In this document: positions 57,438-60,740 of the stretch, piece after piece
Numbering within the stretch: position 1 is the first letter of the stretch
Layout of the letters: each line of letters opens with the position of its first letter
Assembly (NCBI RefSeq): GCF_001424345.1
Contig: NZ_LMPF01000001.1
Span: 265,751-329,750 of the forward strand
Source of the DNA: Burkholderia sp. Leaf177
GTDB lineage: Bacteria > Pseudomonadota > Gammaproteobacteria > Burkholderiales > Burkholderiaceae
Length of the DNA: 64,000 nucleotides
Reading direction: 5' to 3'
The notes under the pieces: generated by a model
The model's input: only the letters and a program-made list of their open reading frames with translations
The model's database searches: none
What the model was told of the DNA's origin: nothing
Made by a program: the position numbers and the translations under genes

Positions 57438-57514
57438 TGGTGCGGCTGGCAGGATTCGAACCCACGACCCCTTGGTTCGTAGCCAAGTACTCTATCCATC
57501 TGAGCTACAGCCGC
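57438..57514 (-). tRNA. tRNA-Arg(ACG), copy 1
   Basis: A 77-base tRNA with encoded CCA, acceptor GCGGCTG/CAGCCGC, anticodon loop CTACGAA giving ACG (read as ICG) and T-loop TTCGAAT. Identical to the copy upstream at 57604-57680. Confidence 0.98.
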
Positions 57515-57603: not shown

Positions 57604-57680
57604 TGGTGCGGCTGGCAGGATTCGAACCCACGACCCCTTGGTTCGTAGCCAAGTACTCTATCCATCTGAGCTACAGCCGC
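57604..57680 (-). tRNA. tRNA-Arg(ACG), copy 2
   Basis: Identical in all 77 bases to the downstream copy, separated by 89 bases of unrelated spacer; both read on the minus strand and share one terminator at 57402-57430, so they are probably cotranscribed. Confidence 0.98.
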
Positions 57681-58463: not shown

Positions 58464-59621
58464 TTAGAAGCGGTGACGAATGCCAACCGTTGCCGACACT
58501 TGATTCGGGGTCGACGACATGCCTACGCCCGTGATCGGAGCGCCGAGGCCGGTGTCGCCCAGGTCAATCGCGTGAACGTATTCACCTTGCAGGTACACGT
58601 CAGTGCGCTTCGACAGCGAGTAAGCCGTTTGCAGGGCGAACTGATGGAACGAAGGCTTCGCGCCGTCAAGACGTGCGTCCGTGTACGTGTACTCGCCTGC
58701 CAGGCTCAGTGCCGGGGTCAGCGCGTAACGGCCGTTCAACTCATAGTTGTTGAAGCGAGCATAGTTGTTCGTCAGGCCAACACCGTTGGTTGCGCTGATT
58801 GCGCCGCCAGAGATGCCAACTGCGTCTTCAAGCTTCGTTTGCGTGAACACGAAGCCAACCGTTGCCGGGCCGAACGCGTAGTTCAAGCCAGCACCGAACG
58901 TGCGCTGCAGGCCAGCCACGAACGTGTTGTCGCCAGCAACTGCACCGCCGCTGTTCGACAGTGCTGCAGCAGCACCAGCGCCCGTGACGTTGTTGTTCAG
59001 TTGCAAGTAAGCAGCAGCGATGTTCAACGGACCGTAGTTGTACGATGCGCCAACGCTGTAAGCCCGGTTGTTCGAGAAACCGTCAGCCTGGTTCGAGAAC
59101 CCGTACTGAGCACCGAACTTGAAGCCAGCGTAGTTCGCGCTTTGGTACTTGATCGAGTTGTTGATACGGAACGAGTTGTCGAGGTTGTCGTTGTCGAACG
59201 GGTGGGCGAACTGCGTACCACCGTACTGCGTACCGGTCAGAGCCAACGGGCCCAGGTAGTCAACCACTGAGTCGTATTGACGACCAAGCGTTACAGCACC
59301 GTATTGCGTGCTCGACAGACCAACGAATGCTTGACGGCCGAATTCGCGACCACCTTGACCCAGCGTGCCGTTAGCAATGCTGAAGCCGTTTTCCAACGTG
59401 AAGATTGCCTTCAGGCCACCGCCGAGGTCTTCAGCGCCGCGCAAGCCCCAACGGCTGCCGTTCACCGAACCGCTCGTCATCTTGAAGTTGTGTTCGCCGC
59501 CTTGGTTGTTCGTGTACGTCAGGCCAGCATCGATCAAACCGTAGAGCGTCACGCTGCTTTGTGCGTGAGCGGCGGTTGCAAATACGCCCGACAGGGCGGC
59601 GACCATGAGAGTCTTTTTCAT
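58464..59621 (-). CDS. Gram-negative porin (OpcP/OmpC-like)
   Basis: A 385-residue trimeric general porin of the Burkholderiaceae type. The signal peptide ends TAAHA (residue 20), followed by QSSVTLYGLIDAGLTYTNN. GSRWGLRGAEDLGGGLKAIFTLENGF and GRQAFVGLSS are typical first strands, and the protein ends VSATVGIRHRF with the terminal Phe needed for Bam-dependent insertion. GGAG lies about eight bases before the ATG. A small hairpin (59644-59648 with 59655-59659) sits in the mRNA leader close to the Shine-Dalgarno. Codon usage is strongly biased to a few codons, as in highly expressed genes. Confidence 0.95.
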   Translation of the reverse strand: MKKTLMVAALSGVFATAAHAQSSVTLYGLIDAGLTYTNNQGGEHNFKMTSGSVNGSRWGLRGAEDLGGGLKAIFTLENGFSIANGTLGQGGREFGRQAFVGLSSTQYGAVTLGRQYDSVVDYLGPLALTGTQYGGTQFAHPFDNDNLDNSFRINNSIKYQSANYAGFKFGAQYGFSNQADGFSNNRAYSVGASYNYGPLNIAAAYLQLNNNVTGAGAAAALSNSGGAVAGDNTFVAGLQRTFGAGLNYAFGPATVGFVFTQTKLEDAVGISGGAISATNGVGLTNNYARFNNYELNGRYALTPALSLAGEYTYTDARLDGAKPSFHQFALQTAYSLSKRTDVYLQGEYVHAIDLGDTGLGAPITGVGMSSTPNQVSATVGIRHRF

Positions 59622-60041
59622 CTTTGTAACTCCGAGAGCAGTTTGGGTCTGACAACCCAGGCTTGAAGGAAACCTTCACTCCGACGCGCTGCGAGAGGCG
59701 CTGTCAGGTGATTTCATGTGCAATGAATTGACACAGTCGTTTCCGGACCAGACGAAGTGTAAAGACGGTGTTACAGCGATGGCATTCCGATTTCCGCAAT
59801 AAAGTATTCTGTTATCGGCAATGATGGGAAAATCCCGGAGAGGGCTTTACTGGCAAGGGTTTGCGGGGGATTGAGAAGAACACAAGGCGCGTGTCAACAA
59901 AGTGTCGTTGCGCAATTGCTACAAGTTCTATAGTTAAAATACAACGCCAATAATCCGAAATGTCGATTGTTGACGGAACCGCAATAGATGATTGCCAGAA
60001 CTGGGGATGATTCTCGTCTGATGCATGGCTATACTTAAATC
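59622..60041. other. Intergenic region upstream of the porin gene
   Basis: About 420 bases with no supportable protein gene, AT-rich in its distal half. It must hold the porin promoter and long leader on the minus strand and, if the candidate small RNA is real, that RNA's promoter on the plus strand. TAAAAT (59935-59940) and TATACT (60030-60035) are plus-strand -10-like hexamers, neither with a good -35. Confidence 0.5.
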
Positions 60042-60126
60042 GCTGCTTTCCGAAGCAGACTTTTTCGTTGACGGAAAAGATCTCCAAACCTTGTCAGCGC
60101 GACTTCCCAGTCGCGCTTTTTTTTTT
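60042..60126 (+). ncRNA. Candidate trans-acting small RNA next to the porin gene
   Basis: An 85-base plus-strand interval folds into three hairpins: CTGCTT/AAGCAG with loop TCCG (60043-60058); a 7-bp stem 60060-60066/60073-60079; and the terminator GCGCGACT/AGTCGCGC with loop TCCC (60097-60116) followed by ten T (60117-60126). A 17-base unpaired window between hairpins 2 and 3 contains ATCTCC, complementary to Shine-Dalgarno sequences. TATACT at 60030-60035 would place the start near 60042. There is no plus-strand protein gene here that needs this terminator. The shape matches Hfq-type small RNAs. Confidence 0.6.
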
Positions 60127-60185
60127 CAAAGCAAATCCACGGGGATTCGCTCCGAGCGCTATCTAATTAGTAGTCTCTGCGAAAC

Positions 60186-60458
60186 CTAATAGGCGAGTTC
60201 CATTTCCTCTTCAGGATGCTCCGGCGTTTCGACGGGCTTGCTGTTATCAAAAACCGCCGGGCTCGAAATCGTCCAGTCTTCCATTACGTAACGGCGGGCA
60301 TCCATTGGAGAGGACAACAGGTTTTGCCAATGATCGCCATGCCATGCAGGATCGAAATCCAGTAAAGACGTCGTTTGTGCTTCCGATGTTTCCACTGCGG
60401 GCTGAGGGGCCACCCAAGTCCTGATCCACGAAAACATGCTTTTGAGTTCGGTCGTCAC
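60186..60458 (-). CDS. Small acidic protein of unknown function (90 residues)
   Basis: The GTG at 60458 is preceded by a perfect AAGGAGGT six bases upstream, so a real gene is likely. The 90-residue product is acidic at its end (HPEEEMELAY) and Trp-rich near the start (FSWIRTWVAP) and middle, with no signal or clear domain. I do not recognise a family. It lies between the candidate small RNA and the exonuclease gene; no terminator is evident for it. Confidence 0.7.
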   Translation of the reverse strand: MTTELKSMFSWIRTWVAPQPAVETSEAQTTSLLDFDPAWHGDHWQNLLSSPMDARRYVMEDWTISSPAVFDNSKPVETPEHPEEEMELAY

Positions 60459-60740
60459 GGCCTGACCTCCTTAAAAAGTGTTTGCGGTACACGTTTATGA
60501 TGCCGACGGTCGCCCTCGGTAACAAGACTCGTAAACGCTTACGATTCGATAAATCCGGTTACAACCCGGGTAAATACTTCCGAATCCATATAGAGTTGGC
60601 TTAGAAGGGCAATTGTTGCGATGAATCCGCCTTTCGTCCTTCGCATTCAATAGTGCGAATTGCAGGAGATTAAGGAACCCGCTTTACCGTGGGATAAAAT
60701 GCAAGATCGGATTCCACTTCACTTTTAGCGGTCAGCACCC

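Follow-up and report, generated by a model that had tools for sequence, protein, structure and literature searches.

A short region of Burkholderia sp. Leaf177, lying between two genes of the minus strand, one of which encodes a porin, raises the question of whether its plus strand carries a regulatory RNA and, if so, whether the neighbouring porin is what that RNA regulates. A reading of the sequence alone (hereafter the sequence-only reading) had proposed a compact small RNA in which an unpaired linker complementary to Shine-Dalgarno sequences precedes an intrinsic terminator, with the porin gene as its target or locus partner. All positions given are those of the window, by which we mean the whole 64,000-nt stretch of DNA that was analysed.

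Identity of the plus-strand element

A covariance-model search (cmscan) assigned positions 60042-60125 of the plus strand to Rfam family RF02869 (ncS025, "Burkholderia sRNA 25") with 104.3 bits (gathering score 46), the match spanning model positions 1-85 of 85 with E = 8.6e-18 for the whole window. The proposed small RNA, complete with linker and terminator, was thereby confirmed as a member of an experimentally detected family. Detection of NcS25 in Burkholderia cenocepacia relied on dRNA-seq and on Northern blots (PMC5688073, PMC10117139), and PMC10117139 describes its mapping at 84 nt by dRNA-seq, together with a Northern blot that included a deletion control. The published transcript is characterized as ~84 nt long and abundant in biofilms, and the match in the window is likewise 84 nt long. 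The sRNA is therefore already known: it has been named, Rfam has a curated family for it and its function has been published. Over this stretch, the best matches among at least 80 named records came from Caballeronia (87% and 85% identity over ~2.8 kb), and we put the probability that the element is the Caballeronia orthologue of the trans-acting sRNA NcS25 of B. cenocepacia J2315, acting by the mechanism set out below, at roughly 0.93.

Secondary structure

The minimum-energy fold of the RNA had an energy of -28.1 kcal/mol, where dinucleotide shuffles averaged -16.9 (z = -3.96) and none of 200 did as well. It reproduced the two hairpins that had been predicted on the plus strand, the first of 6 bp at 60043-60058 (helix 1, 92.4% of cells paired) and the second of 8 bp at 60060-60079 (helix 2, 93.2% of cells paired), the 5' arm and loop of hairpin 2 being complementary to the start codon region of a porin like BCAL3473 of B. 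cenocepacia. These hairpins are followed by an unpaired targeting linker, AUCUCCAAACCUUGUC (60080-60095, plus strand), which carries an anti-Shine-Dalgarno seed and opens with ATCTCC (60080-60085); the sequence-only reading was right about this motif but had given the unpaired segment 17 bases, where the fold leaves 16 nt. The RNA ends in an intrinsic terminator (60096-60126, plus strand) with a GC-rich stem at 60096-60117 and a T tract. Counting A60096-U60117, the stem has nine pairs, and otherwise it consists of the perfect 8 bp followed by ten T (60117-60126) that had been described. The element thus combines its own intrinsic terminator and long U tract with an exposed seed, features of Hfq-type sRNAs, and the U-rich terminator would be compatible with Hfq dependence in this strain.

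Conservation across Burkholderiaceae

Among 150 genomes of the family, 74 gave RF02869 matches at E <= 0.001, which in 67 genomes were over the cut-off; none of 14 control genomes, E. coli included, gave a match at this level. The remaining 76 genomes are treated here as lacking the sRNA, meaning that they gave no RF02869 match at E <= 0.001 under stricter filters. A repeat search of ten of these 76 under relaxed settings yielded no match at E <= 0.001 and, in three of them, E values of 0.0014-0.0020, below the cut-off; at E <= 1, the laxer search also matched 5 of the 14 control genomes, none over the cut-off. The genus names Caballeronia, Trinickia and Mycetohabitans derive in part from exact matches of 19 of the 74 sRNA-bearing genomes to 31 of at least 80 named records.

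The start of the linker is its most constant part, as TCTCC was present in all 75 matches, TCTCCAA in 73, TCTCCAAAC in 69 and the full 11-mer ATCTCCAAACC in 35. A covariance search across relatives, suggested by the sequence-only reading as a check, upheld conserved stems with both-side changes at 9 of 24 stem pairs, but the invariant window expected alongside them did not materialize, since fewer than half of the matches carry the whole 11-mer. In the 36 of 60 distinct sequences (from the 75 matches) that formed the covariation set, 92.8% of cells were paired according to the Rfam structure. Near-identical rows were thinned by eye for this set, which also leaves out the weakest matches and the Pandoraea-type rows, whose hairpin 1 does not align. 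Nine both-side changes were reached in 15 of 500 shuffles, and the covariation score of 0.184 (shuffled mean 0.148) in none of 500, counts that are not to be read as probabilities because the sequences are related; when the structure was slid, the score was at most 0.105. Helix 4, the terminator, has changes of both partners at 4 of 9 pairs and contains the clearest compensatory pair (A-U 17, G-C 14, G-U 4). The outermost pair of hairpin 1 (10/36) and the innermost pair of the terminator (13/32) were often unpaired.

Several lineage-specific variants were observed. Besides a full copy, genome G065 holds a second, weak NcS25-like match of 35.3 bits (L076, C4:738225-738301) that keeps GTCTCCAAATC, is without a TATACT box and may be a diverged paralogue. 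The Trinickia-type sRNAs L046, L047, L049, L050 and L052-L054 have GACGTCTCC in place of the AGATCTCC seen in most others; GGAGAC or GGAGACGTC is found in the leaders of several G025 porins, and the two observations together suggest that the target set may have shifted. UUUGUC is missing from the linkers of L055, L056, L058 and L059 (Mycetohabitans type) and of L060-L070, L072 and L074 (Pandoraea type). In the Pandoraea-type genome G031, a segment of hairpin 1, GCGAGAAG, is the complement of CTTCTCGC, which lies near the beginning of that genome's BCAL3473-like gene.

Promoter, terminator and flanking genes

The -10 box TATACT, which had been picked out on the plus strand, lies at 60030-60035 and is common among the RF02869 matches (TATACT in 66 of 75, TATAAT in 4, TACACT in 3, TATAGT in 1 and none in 1). 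A promoter scan found no sigma-70 -35/-10 pair, the only clear signal being the -10 box itself. Stacking the upstream sequences of 74 matches at this box brought out two conserved blocks, GATTnTTG and AAtAg..g.TTg, represented on the plus strand of the window by CAATAGATGATTG at 59982-59994, ending 35 nt before the -10 box, and by GATTGTTG at 59965-59972. The block at 59982-59994 is a possible activator site or UP-like element, and the two blocks, taken with the lack of a -35 consensus, hint at an activator. ATTG...CAAT half-sites within positions 59965-59994 could, we presume, suit one of the LysR type.

Both flanking genes lie on the minus strand, as had been stated. The porin gene (58464-59621; Pfam Porin_4, E = 4.7e-54) is divergent from the sRNA and occupies the position of BCAL3008, and a hypothetical ORF of 90 aa (60186-60458), with no Pfam match at E 0.001, converges on it. 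According to PMC10117139, ncS25 of B. cenocepacia is situated between the hypothetical gene BCAL3007 and the porin gene BCAL3008, with cspA beyond the hypothetical gene, so that the published arrangement of a divergent BCAL3008-type porin upstream and a hypothetical gene downstream is also the one found here. The same study describes a bidirectional terminator common to ncS25 and the downstream gene. Read on the minus strand, the terminator stem in the window is followed by TGACAAGG, without a T run, and by this measure it does not appear clearly bidirectional.

The possibility that the transcript is coding was also considered. The claim that the region has no plus-strand protein gene fails in the purely mechanical sense, since a 54-aa plus-strand ORF spans 60025-60189, and stands as regards coding, for we rejected this ORF on the grounds that its ATG precedes the -10 box and that slight variation in length among relatives would disrupt the frame.

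A reading in which no regulator exists, and the region is a chance array of hairpins or a terminator in the 3' UTR of a transcript from upstream, can draw on the fact that an intrinsic terminator alone would yield part of the signal, on the unmatched -35 consensus and on the frequency of terminator-like patterns, of which positions 59622-60480 hold 2 against a shuffled mean of 1.0, a count that is not telling by itself. It is nevertheless extremely improbable given the E value of the Rfam match, the conservation of -10 box, linker and covariation, the placement of the upstream gene on the opposite strand and the direct detection of the orthologue in B. cenocepacia (PMC5688073, PMC10117139).

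The adjacent porin as a proposed target

Proximity makes the divergent porin at 58464-59621 an obvious candidate for regulation by NcS25. By a simple ORF rule, 71 of 74 genomes have a divergent, porin-like start upstream of the sRNA, which in 56 of these lies 370-436 nt away (the starts in G030, G047 and G124, at 303-304 nt, are probably misplaced), and the same neighbourhood is described in PMC10117139. The suggestion that this gene is a locus partner of the sRNA was thus upheld. As a target, however, it was not supported. Its predicted binding energy to NcS25 (L081, -5.7 kcal/mol) is at background and was reached by 7 of 60 shuffled targets. When the linker was shuffled, 62 of 100 sequences bound as well or better, and the mean over 30 other genomes was also -5.7 kcal/mol. 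Furthermore, in Table 1 of PMC10117139, BCAL3008 mRNA, as measured by qPCR, is not significantly changed by deletion of ncS25 in B. cenocepacia. The adjacent porin is probably not the sRNA's target, and we regard regulation of it by NcS25 as very unlikely. At this locus, the inference that an RNA beside a porin must regulate that porin is misleading.

BCAL3473-like porins as probable distant targets

In B. cenocepacia, deletion of ncS25 raised expression of the distant porin BCAL3473 83-fold in planktonic and 27-fold in biofilm cells, an effect complemented in trans by native NcS25 and not by a linker mutant (PMC10117139). The pairing described there runs from -14 to +16 of BCAL3473, with possibly faster mRNA decay proposed as its consequence, and three further porins predicted by CopraRNA, together with a phosphotransferase gene, are reported as unresponsive to NcS25 (PMC10117139).

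A PF13609 search returned 29 porins in the genome studied here. Binding energies were calculated for porins only, from two-strand partition functions of NcS25 against 80 nt around each start, with starts chosen by a simple rule and single-base shuffles as controls. Three of the 29 stood apart, namely L084 (-16.5 kcal/mol), L082 (-15.9) and L096 (-15.7), none of which was equalled by any of its 60 shuffled targets; the next porin reached -10.9 kcal/mol. Shuffles confined to the linker bound as well in 0 of 100 cases for L084, 0 of 100 for L082 and 3 of 100 for L096. The gene L082, on contig C4, has a start region that reads ..CCCTTTGGAGATCATCA and then ATGAAAAAGTCGCTTCTC, and its leader sequence TTTGGAGATC is a 10-nt perfect Shine-Dalgarno complement to the linker. 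In the cofold, sRNA nucleotides 11-15 and 17-30 (the latter being 60058-60071) cover the start codon and first codons, an arrangement matching that described for BCAL3473 (-14 to +16; PMC10117139). From this shared pairing site, we infer that L082 is the likely orthologue of BCAL3473. The protein encoded by L096 is similar to that of L082, of which it is a paralogue, and its leader has a 7-nt complement, TTGGAGA.

Complementarity of this kind is conserved among relatives. When the best BCAL3473-like match was paired with the sRNA of its own genome, mean binding was -17.2 kcal/mol (n = 30 genomes, of which five matches are probably not orthologues), and (T)TGGAGA preceded the start in 25 of the 30, the five without it being Trinickia-type rows. 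The combined BCAL3473-type motif, searched as an exact pattern, occurred in 58 of the 74 sRNA-bearing genomes and in 1 of the 76 others (G010). Trinickia-type genera (g13, g25) account for 14 of the 16 sRNA-bearing genomes lacking it and were without it in 14 of 14, so that BCAL3473-like porins cannot be the sole role of the sRNA there. The association of sRNA and target motifs, in presence and absence, follows clades. In the Paraburkholderia-type genome G104, where one gene is split over rows L363 and L367 and L366 lacks a start, the BCAL3473-like porin ranked only 3rd of 28 by binding energy, which implies that such energies separate true targets only roughly. A porin leader of the form TTGACAAAGAC..GGAGA, complementary to both halves of the NcS25 linker, was observed in L342 (G104), which ranks first of the 28 porins there, and in L321 (G025), which is 6th of 21.

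Family membership, conserved structure and conserved complementarity are observed here, and the mechanism that we propose builds on them. NcS25 would have a promoter of its own (-10 at 60030), and its transcription would stop at the intrinsic terminator at 60117-60126. Its exposed linker would then seed on, and mask, the Shine-Dalgarno region of mRNAs from porin genes at other loci. On the BCAL3473-like L082 mRNA, hairpin 2 is predicted to open and to cover, by pairing, the start codon and the codons that follow, which would block ribosome entry or initiation and probably lead to degradation of the mRNA. Both expression of the sRNA and repression of L082 in this strain are, on this basis, what we infer.

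A tentative second target and a two-part linker

The 3' half of the linker, CCUUGUC, is dispensable for BCAL3473-type pairing, and a candidate use for it is repression of a second porin, L084, encoded ~75 kb away. L084 is the best of the 29 porins in this genome and binds with hairpins 1 and 2 intact, and the linker shuffles likewise favour it, as none of 100 did as well. A leader block, TTGACAGGG..TGGAGGAG, likewise searched as an exact pattern, was present in 53 of the 74 sRNA-bearing genomes and in 0 of the 76 others, and its presence agreed with that of UUGUC in the linker in 69 of 74. Across 29 genomes, L084-like porins bound at a mean of -11.9 kcal/mol and surpassed the adjacent porin in 29 of 29 (L265 was left out of this set as its start was not found, and the tandem copy L285 stands for G146). 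Against this, clade confounds the association between block and sRNA; a slightly changed block, TGACAGGGTACGGAGGA, occurs in G016, a genome that gave no sRNA match up to E 1; G097, G068 and G130 keep the block though their linkers are degenerate and have lost UUGUC; and by binding energy the L084-like porin comes no higher than 7th of 21 in G025 and 5th of 28 in G104. In B. cenocepacia, moreover, the three further porins predicted by CopraRNA, a better method than the energies used here, were unresponsive (PMC10117139), and the L084 orthologue is possibly among them. For these reasons, we rate L084 as a target at about one chance in three. The association of L084-like leaders with the sRNA may possibly be new.

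It is conceivable, though we consider it a little less likely than repression of L084 itself, that NcS25 is a small hub for several porins whose linker has two parts, UCUCCAA, which would address BCAL3473-like porins, and UCUCC together with CCUU(U)GUC, which would address L084-like ones. Both motifs were found in 39 of the 74 sRNA-bearing genomes, the BCAL3473-type alone in 19 (17 of them Pandoraea or Mycetohabitans types), the L084-type alone in 14 (13 of them Trinickia types) and neither in 2 (G114, G134). If the hub reading were true, each lineage would have kept one target or the other, and the conservation of a linker 3' half that BCAL3473-type pairing leaves unused would be explained. 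The L084-like porin is in any case a concrete second candidate target, one that would account for the part of the linker that the known target does not use.

Relation to known systems

The window contains a further small RNA, ncS16 (RF02866; 789-873, minus strand; 74.8 bits against 48), which stems from the B. cenocepacia biofilm sRNA set (PMC5688073, PMC10987360). It belongs to the same published set as NcS25 and is of similar size, yet Rfam assigns it to a different family with a distinct model. Two tRNA genes on the minus strand (57441-57514 and 57607-57680, 64.3 bits each) are probably a tandem pair. As PMC10117139 presents its screen of 30 strains, the genus Caballeronia is absent among them, and our searches add Caballeronia, Trinickia and Mycetohabitans to the genera represented there.

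The closest known counterpart of the element is NcS25 of B. cenocepacia J2315, with which it shares the length of 84 nt, the linker, the divergent porin and hypothetical gene beside it and the complementarity to the Shine-Dalgarno sequence and start codon of a BCAL3473-like porin. It differs from the Burkholderia-type rows L003 and L004 (AAACCUUUGUC) in that its linker (AAACCUUGUC) is one base shorter, and from B. cenocepacia NcS25 in that this genome holds two BCAL3473-like paralogues with strong pairing (L082 and L096). Beyond Burkholderiaceae, the enterobacterial sRNAs MicF, MicC and RybB are short, encoded in trans and mask the Shine-Dalgarno sequences of outer-membrane porin mRNAs. The likeness drawn here between NcS25 and these three RNAs is one of mode of action.
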